Origin: Tahibacter amnicola
Lineage (GTDB): Bacteria > Pseudomonadota > Gammaproteobacteria > Xanthomonadales > Rhodanobacteraceae
Reading direction: 5' to 3'
Assembly: GCF_025398735.1 (NCBI RefSeq)
Contig: NZ_CP104694.1
Coordinates: forward strand, 2,691,001-2,755,000
Length of the DNA stretch: 64,000 bases
Shown piece by piece: positions 17,470 to 48,877 of this stretch (the first letter of the stretch is position 1; the number at the start of each line of letters is the position of its first letter). Position numbers and translations under genes: made by a program. The notes beneath the pieces are model-generated. The model was not told where the DNA came from. It was given only the letters and a program-made list of their open reading frames with translations, and ran no database searches.

Positions 17470-17958
17470 ATGAAAACGATCATGCTGGGTGTGGTCACCG
17501 TGGTGTTGGCGATGGTCGCAGGCCCGACCTGGGCCGCGGCAGGAAAGGGGATGACCTGGGGCAAATACAGCCACGACGTGACGACCGGTACCGACCTGGT
17601 CGGTTGCGGTGGCGTGTGCAATCCGTATGTTGGTGACACGCAGTGCCGCACCCTGCTGCCGATCCTGTGCGTGCGAATTGATGGCTCGCCCAATCCGGGC
17701 GTCGCGGCCGATTTCTACCACGGGTGGCGCGAGGGCCACATCACCACGACCATGCCGTTGGCGGGCACGGCATTGACGAGCCAGGCCGTCGCCGACCAGA
17801 TCTGCGCGGCCACGTTTGGAACCGGATGGGTGATGGCCGAGCATCACCACCCCACCGGTGGTGGCGGCTGGAGCTGGTATGCCTTCGGCAATATCCGGCA
17901 GGACACGCGCTTCTGGACGCGGATCCAGAACCAGCCGGGCAATTGCTGGGATCCGTGA
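17470..17958 (+). CDS. Exported Cys-containing protein of unknown function
   Basis: This is a 162-residue protein with a signal peptide (MKTIMLGVVTVVLAMVAGPTWA). The mature part has several Cys (VGCGGVCNPYVGDTQC, LPILCVRID, QICAATFG, NCWDP) that could form disulfides. It also has aromatic motifs EHHHPTGGGGWSWYAFGN and TRFWTRIQNQPGNCW. Similar small exported proteins occur in related bacteria, without known function. The ATG at 17470 is chosen because it opens the signal peptide; GAAGGTG lies upstream. A strong terminator follows, so the gene is transcribed alone. Confidence 0.75.
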   Translation: MKTIMLGVVTVVLAMVAGPTWAAAGKGMTWGKYSHDVTTGTDLVGCGGVCNPYVGDTQCRTLLPILCVRIDGSPNPGVAADFYHGWREGHITTTMPLAGTALTSQAVADQICAATFGTGWVMAEHHHPTGGGGWSWYAFGNIRQDTRFWTRIQNQPGNCWDP

Positions 17959-18012
17959 TGCATCCGCATCGGCAGTCTGACGCGAGCTGTCGGACGTTCG
18001 CGGCTGTTTCCT

Positions 18013-18040
18013 CTCCGCCGGCGCGCGCCGGCGGAGTTTT
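18013..18040 (+). terminator. Rho-independent terminator
   Basis: CTCCGCCGGCGC (18013-18024) and GCGCCGGCGGAG (18025-18036) form a perfect GC-rich hairpin followed by TTTT. It ends the rightward gene at 17958 and lies just before the stop of the convergent gene at 18049. Confidence 0.85.
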
Positions 18041-18048
18041 GGCCGTCT

Positions 18049-19665
18049 TTACGGCTGGAAGCCGTCGGCGAAGAGCTTGTCCGATGGCCGCGAGCTGAGA
18101 ACGACATCACCGAACGTGCTGATATTGGCCTTGATGATCATGTGGCCATCTGCTCCGATCCAGCCGTCAAAGCCGCGGCTGAAATCCGCGCCCTCATCGG
18201 GCAGGTCGAAGCTGTTCACCGTGGCGGAGACGACGCCCGCGGTCGTCGGCACGGGAACGGACTGCCCCTGCTCAAGGATGCGCCGTGGTGCGCGACCGTG
18301 CTCGAGCAGCCAGATGGCGGGCACGTTGCCGGGATCGGTCCTGGCTTCCAGGATGACGTCGCCATTGGCCAGCACCGCGTTTGCCCCGAAGCTGCGCCAG
18401 GTGCGGCCCGGTTCCGGGGCCAGTGCGCCGGACTGGCCGATGAGCGCGACCGGCTCCGGCGCCATGCCGTCACCCACGCGCCACACGCCCTGGACTTCGG
18501 TGTTGCTGGTGGTCAAGACGCTGCCACCGAATGCCGCATAGCGGCCCGCGGTGCTCAGCGAGGTGGTCTGGAAACTCCGCCAGGTGGAACCTTCCCAGTG
18601 CGGGCCAAAGGTGTCGGTGAGCCCCTGGCCGACGATCGGGCGGTTGATGGCACCGTCGTGCCGGAACAGGCCGTAGCGGCCTTCGACGACGCCGGGTATC
18701 CGGTAGATCGCAAAGAACGTGAACGTGCCGGGCGTCGCGGGGTAGGGGCGGAAAAGGCCTGAGAAATAGGCATCGGCGAGGCCGACAGAAGGACCGCGCG
18801 TGCCCACTTCGTTCTCCATGGCAATGGCCCGGGGCGCGCCGTGGCAGATTTCCCAGATGCCGCTGCGCGCACCGGTGATGTCGAAAATGCCATAGACGCG
18901 GCCGCTGGCCGTTACGGTCAGGTCCCAGGGGGCCCAGTGGGACATGAACTTGTCATTGGTGCCGAGGTTGGGACCCAACGCGTCGGTACTATCCGAACGA
19001 ACGCAGGGAACATTGCCCTGTCCGGGGACATGCCGGGTGACAAGGGCGGTCGAGCCGGCAGTCGCGTGCCTGGCGTTACCGTGGATCAGCGCGCCGCCAC
19101 CGGGCAGTCCGCGCGTGTGGACGAAGTTGGAGGCGTCCGTGTAGGTCCAGCCCGCACCGAGGCCCGGGCCGAGCGTCGAGTCGGTCTTGGTGCGGACGAT
19201 CTCGGTGTTTTTCACCGTATCCCAGCGCCACAGGCCGAAGGTGAGGGTGTCGGGGATTGCCGCATCACCGGCGCGTGCGAGAAAGATGCGCTGGCCGTCC
19301 GCGGCTGTGTCGATCTCGCCGGTGGCGTCGGTGAATACGTGATGGGCTTCGCCCCCTGTCCGGCCAGGCCCTTGCGGGCCAGTGACGCCGAACTGCGCGT
19401 AGCGCGTGAGGATGCCCTGGCGACTGGCCCAGTTCCCGTTGAGGCCGGACTGGGTGAGGCGGACAAGGAATCCAAGCTGTCCGGCCCCCGCGTCGCCGAG
19501 GCGGTACTCGGACAGATTGCGGTGGGTATTGTCAGGCAGGCCGGCGAGGAGGACGCGCCCATCCGGCGCGGCGACGATGCGCCAATCCACTGCCTGGGCG
19601 TTGGTCAGTGAAACGGGAAGGAAGATCCCGGCGAGGGCGGCGAATACTACGGTCCTTGTCAGCAT
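18049..19665 (-). CDS. Exported beta-repeat protein with GFE-type C-terminal tail
   Basis: This is a 538-residue protein. The ATG at 19665 follows AGGGGAGAA and opens a signal peptide (MLTRTVVFAALAGIFLPVSLTNAQA). The mature chain shows loosely repeated units of 60-80 residues with short beta strands around G-x-x-x-x-W/F, such as RYGLFRHDGAINRPIVGQG and RYAAFGGSVLTTSNTEVQG. This suggests a beta-propeller or the tandem-repeat 'choice-of-anchor' type of protein seen in related bacteria. No catalytic motif is visible. It ends SDKLFADGFQP, a tail shared with four other exported proteins in the window. The upstream frame extension lacks a start signal. Confidence 0.7.
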   Translation of the reverse strand: MLTRTVVFAALAGIFLPVSLTNAQAVDWRIVAAPDGRVLLAGLPDNTHRNLSEYRLGDAGAGQLGFLVRLTQSGLNGNWASRQGILTRYAQFGVTGPQGPGRTGGEAHHVFTDATGEIDTAADGQRIFLARAGDAAIPDTLTFGLWRWDTVKNTEIVRTKTDSTLGPGLGAGWTYTDASNFVHTRGLPGGGALIHGNARHATAGSTALVTRHVPGQGNVPCVRSDSTDALGPNLGTNDKFMSHWAPWDLTVTASGRVYGIFDITGARSGIWEICHGAPRAIAMENEVGTRGPSVGLADAYFSGLFRPYPATPGTFTFFAIYRIPGVVEGRYGLFRHDGAINRPIVGQGLTDTFGPHWEGSTWRSFQTTSLSTAGRYAAFGGSVLTTSNTEVQGVWRVGDGMAPEPVALIGQSGALAPEPGRTWRSFGANAVLANGDVILEARTDPGNVPAIWLLEHGRAPRRILEQGQSVPVPTTAGVVSATVNSFDLPDEGADFSRGFDGWIGADGHMIIKANISTFGDVVLSSRPSDKLFADGFQP

Positions 19666-42563: not shown

Positions 42564-42715
42564 GGACGAACCCGATCGGGAAGGCGCCGGAAGTCTAGCG
42601 GGAATGACCAGGAAGCGGGGCGATCGTCGCCGGCGGGCCTGGACCGCACCGTGCACCCGTAGCAGTATCCGACTTCCACCGACAGGGTATCCCTGCGCCA
42701 GGCGCCGTCATCCCG

Positions 42716-43234
42716 ATGAGCCAATACAGCTATTCCGTTACCTGTACCGAGTGCGGTGCCGTTGACGAGGGCCAGGTGGACGAAATGACCGCTGCCTTCG
42801 CGATGGAAGACCATTGCGATCGCTGTCGGCAATGTGGTTCACAGCGTGTCCGGTCGAGCTGGGCCATGCCGCGGATCTCCGAGGCGACACTGACACGGTG
42901 GAGTCGTGAGGCGTCGTTGAGTTTCCTGTCGCAGGACGAAGATATCGTGCTGTCCGAGGCCGACGGCGAGCTGCTGCTCGCCTGCGCCGATCATCCGCAA
43001 ACACTGCCGGAGAAGCGCCTCACCCTGGCCCGTGCGATCTGCGTGCGTATCCACGACGGCCTCACGAGCGAAGAAGATGATCGCCAGCAGGAAGCCCGCC
43101 TGGCCGCTGCGGCGCTGCGCGCGCGTCCTCAACTGCTGGATGCGCTGGCCGTCGATTCGTATATCGGGCGCGTCGTCGCACCATGGCTTCATCGCGCATT
43201 CGACGAAGCGAGCGGGCAGTTCGTGCCCGAGTGA
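42716..43234 (+). CDS. Small protein with N-terminal zinc-ribbon-like cysteines
   Basis: This is a 172-residue protein. The N-terminus has CTECG and, after 28 residues, CDRCRQCG, a possible zinc ribbon with an extra Cys. The rest is helical and acidic (LSEADGELLLACADHPQTLP, DGLTSEEDDRQQEARLAAAA), with no known domain. The ribosome binding site is weak. It lies 152 bp from the divergent spermidine synthase gene and 173 bp before the proline-rich peptide gene, in the same direction as the latter. A role with that peptide is speculative. Confidence 0.65.
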   Translation: MSQYSYSVTCTECGAVDEGQVDEMTAAFAMEDHCDRCRQCGSQRVRSSWAMPRISEATLTRWSREASLSFLSQDEDIVLSEADGELLLACADHPQTLPEKRLTLARAICVRIHDGLTSEEDDRQQEARLAAAALRARPQLLDALAVDSYIGRVVAPWLHRAFDEASGQFVPE

Positions 43235-43407
43235 CACCGCGTCGGCAGGAACGTCTTCCACGGTATACAAGCGCCGAAAGTGGCTCGCCAGTCCCGCGAA
43301 AATGGCACTGCTTCGCAGGGGCAATCTGGGCTACTACTGGCGCCCGGCATCTGCGCCTGGAACAGGACACAGAAGCCGCAACCGACTCGGCATAGAGGAG
43401 TTTTCCC

Positions 43408-43554
43408 GTGAATGAAGCCTTGCGTGAATTGAACCTGGAAGAGATCGAAATGGTCGCCGGTGGATTCGACGGCGTGATCATCTGCCCGCCGCCGCGCGTG
43501 TGGGGCCCACTCGGCCTCGTGCCGCCGCCCAGCGTCGTACCGCCGCCGCGCTGA
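43408..43554 (+). CDS. Double-glycine-leader precursor peptide with proline-rich core
   Basis: This is a 48-residue peptide in a frame too short for the usual ORF cutoff. A GAGGAG at 43395-43400 lies seven bases before a GTG start. The leader MNEALRELNLEEIEMVAGG has the form of class II bacteriocin and microcin leaders (E-L/I-x-x-L-x-x-x-E-M/V-x-x-V-x-GG), which are cut after GG by C39 peptidase-type transporters. The 29 residues after GG have ten prolines, in three PPP groups and one single P (CPPPRVWGP, VPPPSVVPPPR), one Cys and one Trp. I know no close match. A strong hairpin follows at 43574-43604. No C39 transporter or modifying enzyme is in view, so export would need a gene elsewhere. 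Confidence 0.7.
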   Translation: MNEALRELNLEEIEMVAGGFDGVIICPPPRVWGPLGLVPPPSVVPPPR

Positions 43555-43573
43555 TCACAGTGCTCCGCTGCGT

Positions 43574-43604
43574 GGGCGCCCATCGGTCCTGCTGATGGGC
43601 GCCC
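43574..43604 (+). terminator. Rho-independent-like terminator of the peptide gene
   Basis: GGGCGCCCATC (43574-43584) and GATGGGCGCCC (43594-43604) are perfectly complementary, with GTTTCC after. It starts 20 bp after the peptide stop and also lies near the end of the convergent MBL gene at 43639. Confidence 0.75.
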
Positions 43605-43638
43605 GTTTCCTCGCCGTACGCCGAACTGCGGTGCTGAA

Positions 43639-45207
43639 TCAGGCGATGTCCAGTTCCACCCACAGACCGCGCTTGTCCGGATCGACGGACACCCGCTGAA
43701 TCGAACCGGAGGGTGTACGGAAGGGCGCCTTGCCGTTGAGCAGCCAGGCGTCGTCGGCGCGAACAACGCGTTTTCCTGCCCGCCGGTGCAATGCGTCGAG
43801 AATCTCGTTGAAGGGCATCGCCCCCCAGCGAACGCGCTCGGCGTCATCCTTGTTGGTGGGAATGAAGGCGGTGAGGTCCTTGTCGACCATCAGTTCCAGT
43901 CCCTTCTGCTTGAGCGTCGCGTTCTCGCTGCCGTGGTGGCCCACCTTGTACAGCACCGTGCGGGCGAGCAGGTCATGCGCGGTGACCGTCTTGCCGTCGA
44001 CCTTCCAAGACACATTCTGCCAGCTCAGCCAATTGCCGACCTGGGCGTCGGCGGCAAACAGCATGACGCGGCCGCTGTCGATAAATTCGAACGCCAGAAC
44101 GACACTGGAATTGTTGGTGCGGTTGTCCAGCTGGATGGCCAGGTCCGAGCTCACGCCGAGCCAGTCATTGTCGATGCGGCGGTAGGCTTCGTCCTTCGCC
44201 AGGTAGCTCGTGGTGAGGAGTTTCGACGCCTTGCGTTCCGCCGGATCGGTGTCGATCGCGCTGCCCTGGATCAGCCGGTCCAGATCCGAGCCGATATCGG
44301 CATCGAAGGGCGTTGCCAGATCCTGCGCGGCATAGCTGCTGGCGCCAAACGCGTTGATCAGTGCGTCGGCCTGCCGGCTCGACGCGCCAAGCCCATACAT
44401 TTCACTCTTGCGCTCGCGCACCGCGATCAGCGATTCGTCGCGGGGCGGACCCAGCACATAGATGCGCAGGTTGGGCAGCCCCGGCAGGGTGATCGGCTTG
44501 TCCGCGGGTTCCACGTAGCGCACGTTTCCGTTGCCCAGCGCCACCAGCGCCTCGCGTGCGGCACGGGTTTTCTCCCCTTTCGCGCCGAAGTGAAAACCCA
44601 GCAGGCCATCGATGCCGGCGCGCATCATGGCCATGTGCCCGTCGTCGGCGACGCCGGCAAGACGTGCCTGGGCGCCTTGCAGGGCTGTCAGCGCGTTGCC
44701 CTTGAAGCGGTCGAAGGCGGCGGCCTGCGGGTCTTCCGGATCTTCCGTCCAGCCCAGCCACACTTCGCCCACGTCGAATTTCCCGAAGGCCTCGCGTGCG
44801 GTGTGAAAACCGGAAATGTGATCCCAGTGTTCGTGCGTGCCGACGATGACATCAATGCGCGGCTTCTTGCCGTTGCGGCGGTTGGCGCCGACGCAGGCTT
44901 CGATATCGGCGACGACTTCGTCGATCTTCCGGTTACCGTTCAGGATGGACGTATGGATACCGCAGTCGATCAGCATCCAGAACGGGCTTCCGTCGCTCTT
45001 CTCGAAACGCAGGAGATGCGCATCGCCGATTCCCTGGCAATAGAAGCGCACGGTTGCCAGGCCCGGCGCATTGGCGCGGTCGCGGTCGGGCATCGACGCT
45101 GTCTTCTTGGCGGCGCGTTTGGAGACGACTTCCCGGGCGGGCTTGCGCGCCGTCGTGCGCCTGCCTTTGACGGATGGCGCACGGTTCCTGGGGGACTTGC
45201 TAGCCAT
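43639..45207 (-). CDS. ComEC-like MBL-fold hydrolase, coupled to the double protease
   Basis: This is a 522-residue protein from the ATG at 45207, which has GGGAGG upstream. The first ~45 residues are rich in Lys and Arg (ASKSPRNRAPSVKGRRTTAR), perhaps a nucleic acid-binding tail. The MBL core follows, with THEHWDH at residues 124-130 (His125, His127, Asp129, His130), FAADAQVGNW and KVGHHGSEN. The KVGHHGS motif is typical of the ComEC/Rec2-type MBL domain, which is a nuclease in competence systems. There is no signal peptide or membrane helix, so it is cytoplasmic. The gene start overlaps the stop of the protease gene by 8 bp, so the two should be translated together. Confidence 0.85.
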   Translation of the reverse strand: MASKSPRNRAPSVKGRRTTARKPAREVVSKRAAKKTASMPDRDRANAPGLATVRFYCQGIGDAHLLRFEKSDGSPFWMLIDCGIHTSILNGNRKIDEVVADIEACVGANRRNGKKPRIDVIVGTHEHWDHISGFHTAREAFGKFDVGEVWLGWTEDPEDPQAAAFDRFKGNALTALQGAQARLAGVADDGHMAMMRAGIDGLLGFHFGAKGEKTRAAREALVALGNGNVRYVEPADKPITLPGLPNLRIYVLGPPRDESLIAVRERKSEMYGLGASSRQADALINAFGASSYAAQDLATPFDADIGSDLDRLIQGSAIDTDPAERKASKLLTTSYLAKDEAYRRIDNDWLGVSSDLAIQLDNRTNNSSVVLAFEFIDSGRVMLFAADAQVGNWLSWQNVSWKVDGKTVTAHDLLARTVLYKVGHHGSENATLKQKGLELMVDKDLTAFIPTNKDDAERVRWGAMPFNEILDALHRRAGKRVVRADDAWLLNGKAPFRTPSGSIQRVSVDPDKRGLWVELDIA

Positions 45208-48200
45208 GATGGGCCTCCCGGTCGGCATGGATGAGTGCAAAGGGCTCCGCTACGGATTTGCGGCAGTCGCCGCCGAAATACAGGGCGCGCAGCGGCGAAA
45301 GATAGCTCGCTCCCATGGACTCCCGCTGGCGCTGCAGCCGATCTTCACTCGCGCAGTTCTTCAGCACGCTGTAGCGAATCTCGCGCACGTTGTCGCGTGG
45401 ATCGATCACCAGCGTCGCTCCGCCGCGGAACCAGAAGAAGCCATTGGCGACGTCTTTTCCGTCAAAGGGAATGGGCCGTCGCTGCGTGATCACGGCGATG
45501 ATTTCGGTTCGATGTGAGCCGTCGGGCGCGATACGGCGCGCGGGACGGATGTTGTGGACTTCGAACGTCGTGTTACACAGCTGGTAAGTGGATCCGTCGG
45601 CGACGGCGACCTCCTTGCCGAGTTCGTCGTAGCGTCGGATGCCTGGCATCAGGCCAAACTCGCGCAGGCGTTCGGCGTCTTCGGCAAAGATCTCGCTGAG
45701 TTTACGCGACACGTTCCCGCAGTTCTCGCGGTTGAGATTAAAAATCTCGTGGCGAGTCAGGACGCGGTTGAAGTTGATGTCGACCGCGTCAACCAGTCGA
45801 TCGAGCCATACCGGCGTCGGATCGTGGAAGGTACCCCAGGACAAGGTCTCTTCCGACACGGTACGCACATCCGCTGGCAGAATGCCGCGCTTGCGGAACG
45901 ATTCCATGATCGCCACGCGGTAGCCGTGGCGGTCCTCGACGACGAGATCGCGATCGGCGGTGATGATGGCGCGCAGATACTCGCCGAACGTGATATCGAC
46001 CGGCGGGCAGTAATCCAGCGCACGGATGCACATCGTCAGGAAATACGAGGCCGTCTCGCAGGTTTCCGTCGTCAGCCGATTGACCAGGTCCGGATGCAGC
46101 GCGCCGGCCGCGAGCACGCCCGTGCCGTTGGTCGCAATGCGGATCAGGTCGGCGGTGCGGTATGACACCACGTTGAGGAAAGCGTCATAGACCGCATGCA
46201 CCAGGATGGATCCGCGGGCGTGAGGTTCCTTGGTATCGGCATAGACCAGGTTGCTCACCTCGGCGCCGACGTAGTCGCGCAACGGGCCGTGCCGGTTGGC
46301 GCCTTCGCCGAACTGCTTGGCAATGCCGCTCAGCAGCTTCGCCGCCGTCAGGTTGCCGTGCGCATGGCCGATCTCGAAGCGGACGAGGTCGGTGATCATG
46401 AAGTGCTGGAACAGCGCAACGATATCGGCGAAGGCTTCGTGGAAGGCGATGACGTCGGGGTTGGAAGGTTCCTCAAAACGCCGGTGGAGGCCGTCGAGCA
46501 GTGCGTGCGTCATTTCGTGGGCGATGATGTCGCTGGAGAGGCACGTGAACACCATTGTGCCGGGGGCGGTCGCATCGACGCCGCTGGAACGCGACTGGAA
46601 GTAGCCGAACAGCAGTGCCTTTTTCTGGGGGCTGTAGTACGCATTCTCGTCGCGCAGTCCGTGTGGGTAGATCCGCAGGCGTCGCGTCTCGTTGTTGCCG
46701 GTGGGCGCCCATAGTGCGCTGCGTCCCAGCGCCCGTTCGAAATGGCCGATGGTCGTCATCGCCACGGCGTAGACCATCTGCTGGTGGAACTGCGGATTGC
46801 CTTCCGAGGGCGCCAGCCCGTCTTGGGCCAGCAGATAGGGATCGTTGAGATCGACCGGTTCGTACACTTTGCCGGAAGCGGGATCGACGTCGATGACTTC
46901 CAGGTACTCGCCGACCGGGCCTGGCTGCAGCGCTTCCATCCGGCTCCGGCGTTCGGTCAATGGACCGTCCTTCTCGTGGGTCGGCATGTCGTCCCACGGC
47001 ACTGTCAAAACAGTTTCGTTGAGCTGGCGCGACTGGATCTGCTTGCCGAGGCTGGGGTCGAGTGCATACACGCGCAGACGCCGCCTGGGCGGTACCGCTG
47101 GCTTGGGACGACGAGCCAGTCCGCTGGACTTTGGCGCCGCTGCGGGGATCGACGGACGATTGCGGCCGACCAGTCTTTCCAGAAACGCCCGCAACAGACG
47201 GGATGGCTGGCCGTGGTCCAGCGCCGCTTCCAGGTAACGGCTGCACGCCGCGGCGGGAATCGTTTGAGGTGGGCGGTCCGGATCGTCAATGGCCTCGTCC
47301 ACCTCGACCACCCGCTGGGCGATCTGGGTCAGTTCCAGCGCGAGCATTTCCTTCTGCGCGGTTGATACCGCGTCGAGACTCACGCCACCGCCGCCGAACA
47401 GCAGGTTGGCGACCGAAAACGATGCCTTCGCCGGTGGCCGCTTCGTCAACTGCGCGGCTGGCAGCGGCAGGATGTCGAGCGCGGCAAGCGCGTTGCAGAC
47501 ACCGTTGCCGATGGTCTTGCGTGTCCGCGCCAGGTCCATCTTCGCGGTCGACTTGCGGGCGCTGGCGAACAGGGCGTGGCGGGCGGCTTCGACGCGCATC
47601 CAGGGTTCCGGATACTTTTTTACCTCGTCCCAATGTTCGGCCAGCCACAGCGCCGCGGCCGCTGCGATCTGCGGCGTGGCGGCGGAGGTGCCCGCACCGT
47701 CCATGTCCACCAGGTTGGCACAGTCGATCTGTGCCCAGGGCACGTTGGGCGTATAGGCGCCCAGGGCCGTTTCCATTTTCTCGTCGGGCCCGAAGTTGCC
47801 CTGCATCGTGCGATTGGCCAGGCCCGTGTAGGCGCGACCATCGGCCATGACGCCGCAGGCCGCCAGCACGCGGTGCAGGCGTGCAGGAAATACGACGGTT
47901 CTGGGTGTCGGCGTGCCGGCAAAATTGTTGCCGGCGGCGGTAACCATCAGCAGGCCTGCGTCATAGGCGAGGTTGACCGCGTCCACCAGTGCGCGTGAGC
48001 TCACGCCGCCCATGCTCATCGACAACACGTGCGCGCCGTGGGTCCTGGCGTAGTCGATGCCTTGCACCATGGTGCCCAGGCGGAACCGGACCACCCAGTC
48101 TGCAATGCGGACGGGAAGGATGCGTGCCAGGGGCGCACCGCCGATGGCTGCGGCGAATGTTTTCCAGGGGTCGGACGGGTTCGCCATCTGCGCGCCGGCC

Positions 48201-48877
48201 AGCAGGCTCAGCGTGCCGGTGCCGTGGCCGCGATTGCGGATGAAACCCAGCCCGTCGGGGGTACGGTCAGTGGCGTCATTGGGCGGGTCGCCGGCCACGA
48301 AATTGCGCTGCAGGGCGTGCATCAGATTGACAGGCACCGTTGCATGCGCCTTGTCGAACCCGGTATCCAGGTGCGCGATGATGATCTGCGCCTGCTTGTC
48401 GCCCACGCGCGCCCGCGCCTGCGCCAGCGCGCTGAAGCCGTCCAGCAGATTCCACCCGACGCTGGGCCCCTTGGGGCGACCGCCTTCGGCGTTCTGATCG
48501 TCGAACGTGCATTGCGGCTTCGCCGCAGCGAGGGCGAGCGCTGATTCGTTGCCCGGCGAATCGCCATGGGGCCATTGCTGCTCGAGGTCCGGTTCGATCG
48601 CCTCGATCGGCCCCAGGCCGCCGGCCACACCGAGTCCCTGCTGTCGTTCCAGCAAGGCATGGGCGTTATCCCAGGGGTTGTCACTGGCAGGCTCCGCCGT
48701 CACGCGCAGCCAGGTGGCCGACCCTTTCTTCGCCAGCCCGAATGCCGCGTCTGCCGGTCTTGCCGGCACTTCCAGGATGGGTTCGGCACGAATGCCAGGC
48801 GTCGCCGAGAGCGATTGCGCCCCGGCCCCGTTCTTGCCGCCGCGCACCTTTACCAGGACTTCATGGACCTTTGCCAT
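45200..48877 (-). CDS. Subtilase fused to an HExxH metallopeptidase
   Basis: This is a 1225-residue protein without a signal peptide, so it appears to be cytoplasmic. After a ~160-residue N-terminal part that may be an inhibitory pro-region, there is a complete subtilisin (S8) domain: Asp171 in HLDTGFD, His218 in RGHGTGT, Asn317 in AAGNN and Ser398 in GTSAATP. Residues ~600-1200 form a second protease domain. It has HEMTH (His787, Glu788, His791) and a third ligand, Glu814, in EAFADI, the pattern of thermolysin-like (M4) or related gluzincins. Two unrelated protease active sites in one intracellular protein are uncommon. The stop overlaps the MBL gene start by 8 bp. The two proteins probably act together; their target is unknown. 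Confidence 0.85.
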   Translation of the reverse strand: MAKVHEVLVKVRGGKNGAGAQSLSATPGIRAEPILEVPARPADAAFGLAKKGSATWLRVTAEPASDNPWDNAHALLERQQGLGVAGGLGPIEAIEPDLEQQWPHGDSPGNESALALAAAKPQCTFDDQNAEGGRPKGPSVGWNLLDGFSALAQARARVGDKQAQIIIAHLDTGFDKAHATVPVNLMHALQRNFVAGDPPNDATDRTPDGLGFIRNRGHGTGTLSLLAGAQMANPSDPWKTFAAAIGGAPLARILPVRIADWVVRFRLGTMVQGIDYARTHGAHVLSMSMGGVSSRALVDAVNLAYDAGLLMVTAAGNNFAGTPTPRTVVFPARLHRVLAACGVMADGRAYTGLANRTMQGNFGPDEKMETALGAYTPNVPWAQIDCANLVDMDGAGTSAATPQIAAAAALWLAEHWDEVKKYPEPWMRVEAARHALFASARKSTAKMDLARTRKTIGNGVCNALAALDILPLPAAQLTKRPPAKASFSVANLLFGGGGVSLDAVSTAQKEMLALELTQIAQRVVEVDEAIDDPDRPPQTIPAAACSRYLEAALDHGQPSRLLRAFLERLVGRNRPSIPAAAPKSSGLARRPKPAVPPRRRLRVYALDPSLGKQIQSRQLNETVLTVPWDDMPTHEKDGPLTERRSRMEALQPGPVGEYLEVIDVDPASGKVYEPVDLNDPYLLAQDGLAPSEGNPQFHQQMVYAVAMTTIGHFERALGRSALWAPTGNNETRRLRIYPHGLRDENAYYSPQKKALLFGYFQSRSSGVDATAPGTMVFTCLSSDIIAHEMTHALLDGLHRRFEEPSNPDVIAFHEAFADIVALFQHFMITDLVRFEIGHAHGNLTAAKLLSGIAKQFGEGANRHGPLRDYVGAEVSNLVYADTKEPHARGSILVHAVYDAFLNVVSYRTADLIRIATNGTGVLAAGALHPDLVNRLTTETCETASYFLTMCIRALDYCPPVDITFGEYLRAIITADRDLVVEDRHGYRVAIMESFRKRGILPADVRTVSEETLSWGTFHDPTPVWLDRLVDAVDINFNRVLTRHEIFNLNRENCGNVSRKLSEIFAEDAERLREFGLMPGIRRYDELGKEVAVADGSTYQLCNTTFEVHNIRPARRIAPDGSHRTEIIAVITQRRPIPFDGKDVANGFFWFRGGATLVIDPRDNVREIRYSVLKNCASEDRLQRQRESMGASYLSPLRALYFGGDCRKSVAEPFALIHADREAHHG

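Follow-up and report, generated by a model that had tools for sequence, protein, structure and literature searches.

A proline-rich peptide with a double-glycine leader in Tahibacter amnicola, probably an orphan precursor for a distant C39-peptidase transporter

Organization of the precursor gene and its neighborhood

The window analyzed here is a stretch of 64,000 nucleotides that corresponds to positions 2691001-2755000 of the Tahibacter amnicola genome (G000). Positions 43408-43554 of this window encode a peptide of 48 residues, which is composed of a leader ending in a double glycine (MNEALRELNLEEIEMVAGG) and a core (FDGVIICPPPRVWGPLGLVPPPSVVPPPR). The features of this gene and of its neighbors are as follows (window coordinates).

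42716..43234, plus strand (same strand, upstream): protein of 172 aa, its cysteines resembling those of a zinc ribbon; a link to the peptide is unproven
43395..43400, plus strand: ribosome-binding site GAGGAG (sequence read directly)
43408-43410, plus strand: start codon GTG (sequence read directly)
43408..43464, plus strand: double-glycine leader of 19 residues, MNEALRELNLEEIEMVAGG (translation and leader-model scores)
43465..43554, plus strand: predicted mature part (core) of 29 residues and stop codon (translation)
43552-43554, plus strand: stop codon TGA (sequence read directly)
43574..43604, plus strand: hairpin 3' of the stop codon, with perfect 11-bp arms at 43574-43584 and 43594-43604 (RNA folding)
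43639-45240, minus strand: MBL-fold protein (matches LmuA of PADLOC with E 3e-10 and, sub-threshold, the anti-phage family 6A-MBL of NCBIfam with E 1.4e-7)
45200-48877, minus strand: subtilase of 1225 aa with a HEMTH motif, overlapping the MBL-fold gene

When the sequence is read again, the GAGGAG element, the GTG start, the stop codon and the 11-bp hairpin all lie where the first-pass annotation had placed them, and its description of a 48-residue peptide with a GG-ending leader and a 29-residue core containing 10 prolines is borne out by translation. The core contains the motif PPPR twice, one Trp and a single Cys at position +7 after the GG; with two Arg and no Lys its net charge is +1, and it contains neither Tyr nor a PRP motif. 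The leader carries Val at −4, Ile at −7, Glu at −8 and Leu at −12 relative to the GG, residues that we take to be the consensus positions of double-glycine leaders. Use of the GTG codon as the start is supported by a relative from genome G269 (described below), in which an ATG codon occupies the corresponding position, with the sequence MN.A[LI]RELN. GC content by codon position (36/48, 23/48 and 38/48) looks coding-like and, by all sequence tests applied, 43408-43554 looks like a real gene. In the predicted fold, which has an energy of −33.4 kcal/mol and a z of −4.1 relative to 200 shuffles, the stem of the 3' hairpin comprises 14 pairs, and this structure perhaps forms the end of the transcript; a U-tract proper is absent behind it, and a scan of positions 42650-43700 yielded no terminator-like and no promoter-like sites.

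The 172-aa protein encoded upstream is devoid of a membrane stretch and has no match in seven other genomes of the genus. It shows a weak match to a Fischerella plasmid (E 1e-5, 34.5% along 106 residues of the query); the genes around this match have no visible link to the 43408-43554 peptide, and an annotated bacteriocin/lantibiotic exporter is located about 1 kb away. On the other side of the peptide gene and convergent to it, the MBL-fold and subtilase genes possibly represent a defence-like protease pair.

The leader, the C39 transporter locus and relatives in other genomes

The leader of the 43408-43554 precursor scored 35.3 bits in a position-score model built from 25 candidate leaders, which were collected with a loose pattern (an ATG codon and a ribosome-site-like stretch being required) from 45 loci fetched via the transporter, none of them via the 43408-43554 peptide. 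In the same model, the next of the 100,876 places in the window reached 12.3 bits, and scores in 30 triplet-shuffled windows went no higher than 19.9 bits. This model replaced, as a test, one derived from 14 leaders that left out both own-genome peptides; the values obtained with the latter (43.1 bits against 10.6 and 14.4) are biased upwards because its leaders were found with profiles seeded by these same two peptides.

Across the whole 6.46-Mb genome, a leader profile gave two matches at E 6.8e-7, both of which are rows of the profile itself, and the next match at E 0.34. The DNA pattern E[IV..]xxV[AS]GG occurs at seven places in the genome (three for a reversed-pattern control), and at only two of these is the leader form part of a short ORF whose start codon lies just upstream: the 43408-43554 ORF and a second one, which we refer to as the sister precursor. 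The sister is also the sole other match to the 43408-43554 peptide in the genome at E ≤10 (E 0.0125), and the search for further leaders of this kind, which the first-pass annotation had proposed, thereby led to an ORF beside the adaptor gene of the transporter. Neither peptide has a Pfam match; NCBIfam returned none for the sister and four sub-threshold matches for the 43408-43554 peptide (the best to the sublancin family, with E 0.0034 and 18 bits where the cut-off is 40), which span the leader and reach no more than four residues past it.

The first-pass annotation had also counted the lack of any C39 transporter in the genome as evidence against its reading. One match to the C39 peptidase family PF03412 is present (E 2.7e-36; G000:C1:4694376-4694762), about 1.96 Mb from the 43408-43554 gene and outside the window. 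The corresponding locus (L032) contains the following genes.

L032:7672-9801, minus strand: C39-peptidase ABC transporter (PCAT) of 709 residues (Pfam domains)
L032:9858-11816: HlyD-type adaptor of 652 residues, directly upstream of the PCAT gene (HlyD_3, E 5.9e-20)
L032:12142-12315, divergent to the adaptor gene: sister precursor with leader MRELNEIEVGQVAGG and a core of 42 residues, DGDIDICPPNWPWRWPRPHHIDLTRVVQPIGNIAQGGFSIGN, the core starting DGDIDICPPNWPWRWPRPHH

An alignment to PDB 4ry2 (E 3.3e-91), which we take to be the transporter PCAT1, indicates that the catalytic triad Cys25/His98/Asp114 of the PCAT is intact; in NCBIfam, the protein comes nearest to NHLP and HlyB-type exporters, whose cut-offs it does not reach. 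A single gene, encoding an aminotransferase, separates the PCAT gene from histidine-kinase and response-regulator genes, and two ORFs of the locus (L032:3062-3670 and 17667-18986) have no Pfam match. The sister precursor begins 325 bases from the adaptor start codon, and its core has the sequence ICPP in common with the 43408-43554 core. The sister core (L032:12187-12315) also carries WPWRWPRP, a Trp/Pro pattern that, in our estimation, recalls indolicidin-like peptides.

Among 398 genomes of the order, with two candidates scored per genome, the closest relative of this PCAT (67% identical) is encoded in G269, a genome of another family; the next best among the matches listed are 48% identical or less. 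Directly upstream of the G269 adaptor and PCAT genes, and on the same strand, lies a precursor gene (MNVAIRELNAAETASVAGG / YDGDWFCGTVPHHFPFPPRPWFNELNLPVIINTPFGG, core starting YDGDWFCGTVPHHFPFPPRPW). A strong hairpin separates this precursor gene from the adaptor gene, so that their co-transcription is not certain; such a hairpin follows directly after the stop codon in all three precursor genes. The leaders of the 43408-43554, sister and G269 precursors are plainly similar, and each of the three cores contains a single Cys at +7 after the GG. The chance that the Cys of both other cores falls at +7 is about 1 in 1,500 (1/42 x 1/37, one Cys per core), a figure that was computed post hoc and is not independent, as the relatives came from profiles containing the 43408-43554 peptide. 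Otherwise, pairwise alignments of the cores are no better than chance (122, 420 and 894 of 2000 shuffles score equally), and DNA words shared upstream of the three genes do not stand out clearly, their observed length being reached by 35, 197 and 65 of 200 shuffles. The sister and G269 cores have net charges of −1 and −2 and contain one PRP each. The first-pass annotation had suggested looking in related genomes for the same leader joined to a different core and had regarded a lack of homologues as counting against it; G269 provides such a combination, beside a PCAT closely related to the one found here.

The family that is defined by the Cys at +7 was found in one genome besides its own within the genomes searched. 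No further member was detected in 10 genomes of the family to which G269 belongs, in 369 genomes sampled from the class or, with a two-row profile of the own-genome peptides, in the 233 own-family genomes searched; the family, order and class searches limit how many candidates are scored in each genome (to 17 or 28 in three of them), and misses are therefore possible. Relatives by their leader only, with other cores, are present in the own family, for example in G107 (MRELNELEVEQVAGG / YLGAFLAGG..., E 2.6e-4). Pattern searches with the 43408-43554 peptide gave 593 matches in genome contigs and 134 in viral contigs, none of which passed (tblastn in the case of the genome contigs), and no confirmed relative was recovered from plasmids or phages; the sister has no relative in plasmids. 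Matches covering the proline-rich part alone, not every one of which was read, were not counted as relatives.

Precursors with GG leaders are also encoded around other PCATs. With the 14-leader model at a threshold of 18 bits, GG-leader ORFs were marked in 19 of 45 named PCAT loci (621 kb), in four of six PCAT loci of the genus (106 kb) and in none of 29 control loci (86 kb). In G007, a genome of the same genus (L041 / L207), seven GG precursors (threshold 14) lie on both sides of the PCAT gene (contig 704856-716832); they have leaders of the type LSKETLR.LTA.E...V.GG, or close to it, and mostly Cys/Pro/Thr-rich cores. A separate GG precursor family, with the leader LVLREL..[IM]EA.DI[FY]GG and short cores carrying the motif VGP[VA][QT]P, occurs in loci L125 (G113), L138 (G148), L139 (G487) and L141 (G128), and the PCATs in the regions fetched from these genomes are 31-37% identical to the own PCAT. 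Matches in G148, G487 and G128 were rejected as relatives of the 43408-43554 peptide; they come chiefly from the G113 row (L125) of a three-row alignment. The precursors of all five genomes resemble the 43408-43554 precursor in having GG leaders near PCATs and, in several cases, proline-rich cores, whereas they differ from it in leader subtype and their cores are unlike. Hence, proline-rich-core precursors recur near these transporters, while the family of the 43408-43554 peptide is narrow.

The adaptors of the own genome and of G269 (L032:9858-11816 and L171:10008-11906) possess an N-terminal extension of about 240-260 aa that is predicted to be cytosolic; in the own adaptor, the membrane stretch follows this long part at residue 268. 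The two extensions are 44% identical, and the similarity to ten other adaptors that were matched starts at residue 236 or later. Among 205 loci, many of which are too short for an adaptor gene, the extension is confined to those of the own genome and G269, and its other matches comprise just 26-28 residues at its end. It gives weak winged-helix matches in Pfam (HTH_33, E 0.077 and 0.012), none in PDB and, for residues 33-102, two plasmid matches (34-36%, E 1e-3 and 2e-3), one of them annotated as an IS630 transposase. Our guess is that the extension might read the leader, which provides a testable idea of how such a system might recognize its cargo.

Candidate export route and possible roles of the peptide

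The C39-type leader, the PCAT with its intact triad, the adaptor encoded upstream of it, the divergent sister gene and the G269 precursor lead us to regard the 43408-43554 product as, very probably, an orphan precursor handled by the single type I secretion system with a C39 peptidase that was found in this genome. The C39 domain would bind the leader in the cytosol and cut it after Gly19; the ABC transporter, the adaptor and a putative TolC channel would then release a proline-rich peptide of 29 residues with its Cys at position 7. Against such an assignment stand the distance of 1.96 Mb to the transporter, the lack of a consensus promoter, and cores that, beyond leader and Cys +7, are not alike above shuffles. 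Likewise unfavorable are the absence of confirmed relatives among genome contigs, plasmids, phages and viral contigs, the single further genome in which the Cys +7 family was detected, and the hairpin between the precursor and adaptor genes of G269. The sister and G269 genes do adjoin the adaptor gene.

Action of the released peptide as a small, bacteriocin-like competition peptide is, in our tentative judgment, its most likely role. This proposal is weakened by the outcome of a crude scan of the stretches flanking the three precursor genes for immunity candidates (ORFs 30-150 aa long that have a ribosome-site-like stretch and encode a window of 19 residues that is hydrophobic), which found none near any of them. 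The same outcome, together with the lack of a hydrophobic window in the 172-aa neighbor, would suit an exported signal or a surface or biofilm peptide devoid of antimicrobial activity, an alternative that ranks next and that we consider rather unlikely. GG proteins with a biofilm function have been described: EbfG1-4 of Synechococcus elongatus are non-antibiotic GG proteins that need the PCAT PteB (PMC4997328). RaxX of Xanthomonas, a GG-leader peptide in which prolines matter, is exported by RaxAB (PMC6637879) and perceived by plants. Furthermore, the histidine-kinase and response-regulator genes lie only one gene away from the PCAT gene; however, no receptor or regulator could be tied to the peptide. 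A sulfated peptide of the RaxX type was rejected, as the core contains no Tyr and the genes of the PCAT locus with a Pfam match, which are all but two ORFs, include no sulfotransferase.

RiPP recognition elements read leaders, and the weak winged-helix domain at the N-terminus of the adaptor could do likewise. Together with the Cys at +7 in all three cores, a candidate site of modification, this would fit a RiPP whose modifying enzyme is encoded elsewhere in the genome; no such enzyme was recognized beside 43408-43554 or beside the PCAT gene, and we judge a RiPP improbable. A speculative reading, to which we give little credence, is that the 43408-43554 peptide and its sister might form a two-peptide product from two distant loci, with a Cys7 disulfide yielding a Pro/Trp-rich heterodimer and with both peptides sorted by the type I secretion system, the winged-helix-like domain of its adaptor reading the leader. 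The orphan position, the missing consensus promoter and the diverged cores could alternatively mark a relict, that is, a duplicated precursor gene whose expression or use has been lost. This is hardly probable, for the leader, the ribosome site, the coding-like composition, the hairpin and the Cys at +7 have all been kept.

Of the first-pass proposal of a secreted proline-rich peptide precursor, the form of a precursor with a C39-type leader is supported, as are the existence of a C39 transporter and of homologous leaders, whereas its hint that the peptide might block ribosomes was not borne out. Entry into cells and ribosome blocking, as by proline-rich antimicrobial peptides, is suggested by the 10 prolines among 29 residues and the repeated PPPR; the composition (net charge of +1, with −1 and −2 in the relatives; two Arg, no Lys and no PRP) led us to reject this very improbable role. 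A chance ORF in GC-rich DNA, in which CCG repeats easily give PPP runs, can be dismissed almost entirely, with a leader that scores 15 bits over the best of 30 shuffled windows in the 25-leader model and with a sister and a G269 relative that adjoin PCAT systems.

Comparison with known peptides exported by C39 transporters

Among the papers listed by the literature searches, no title or abstract opening described this peptide family or its adaptor. The 43408-43554 system has the general features of a PCAT substrate, namely a GG leader, a C39 transporter with an intact triad in the same genome and an HlyD-type adaptor; what it lacks is a position of the precursor gene beside the transporter, which is frequent and not obligatory.

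Class II microcins are described as combining a 15-18-residue leader and an immunity protein of 51-216 aa with export by a PCAT, an adaptor and TolC (PMC10233263 and PMC9746304). The leader (19 residues in 43408-43554), the C39 ABC transporter with a Cys/His/Asp triad and the HlyD-type adaptor are common to the 43408-43554 system and to colicin V/microcin V, with CvaB and CvaA (PMC9746304 and PMC10233263). The core, with 29 residues, falls far short of the 60-90 residues that PMC10233263 gives for class II microcins. Its adaptor of 652 aa, with the added N-terminal part, exceeds the 375-450 aa expected by the pipeline of PMC9746304. Next to a class II microcin gene, one expects an immunity gene whose product measures 51-216 aa and usually has membrane helices; the 172-aa neighbor lies within this length range but has no membrane stretch, and the crude scan found no candidate among ORFs of 30-150 aa in the stretches scanned. 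The 43408-43554 gene also sits far from its presumed transporter. Most class II microcins are neutral or anionic (PMC10233263 and PMC9746304). Of 23 candidates that were mined from Pantoea, Erwinia and Xanthomonas, 12 were inhibitory to E. coli, though weakly (PMC13174018).

Proline-rich antimicrobial peptides, for which a high content of Pro and Arg that can form Pro-Arg-Pro motifs is reported (PMC11678341), are set apart from the 43408-43554 core by its two Arg, its charge of +1 and the lack of PRP. RaxX resembles the 43408-43554 precursor, without any letters having been compared, in being short, in its prolines and in its GG leader, which RaxB removes (PMC6637879); it differs in its Tyr, which the 43408-43554 core lacks, and in its sulfotransferase, none having been recognized at the PCAT locus. 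EbfG1-4 are likewise made as GG precursors and need a C39 transporter; these precursors measure about 9-10 kDa and have a role in biofilm formation (PMC4997328).

The 43408-43554 gene suggests that a C39 transporter and the gene for one of its precursors can lie megabases apart, and that such distant precursors would be missed by neighborhood-based mining and yet be findable by their leader alone. If secreted, the 43408-43554 peptide would present a nearly uncharged, PPP-rich core of 29 residues with a shared single Cys, unlike the classical class II microcins.
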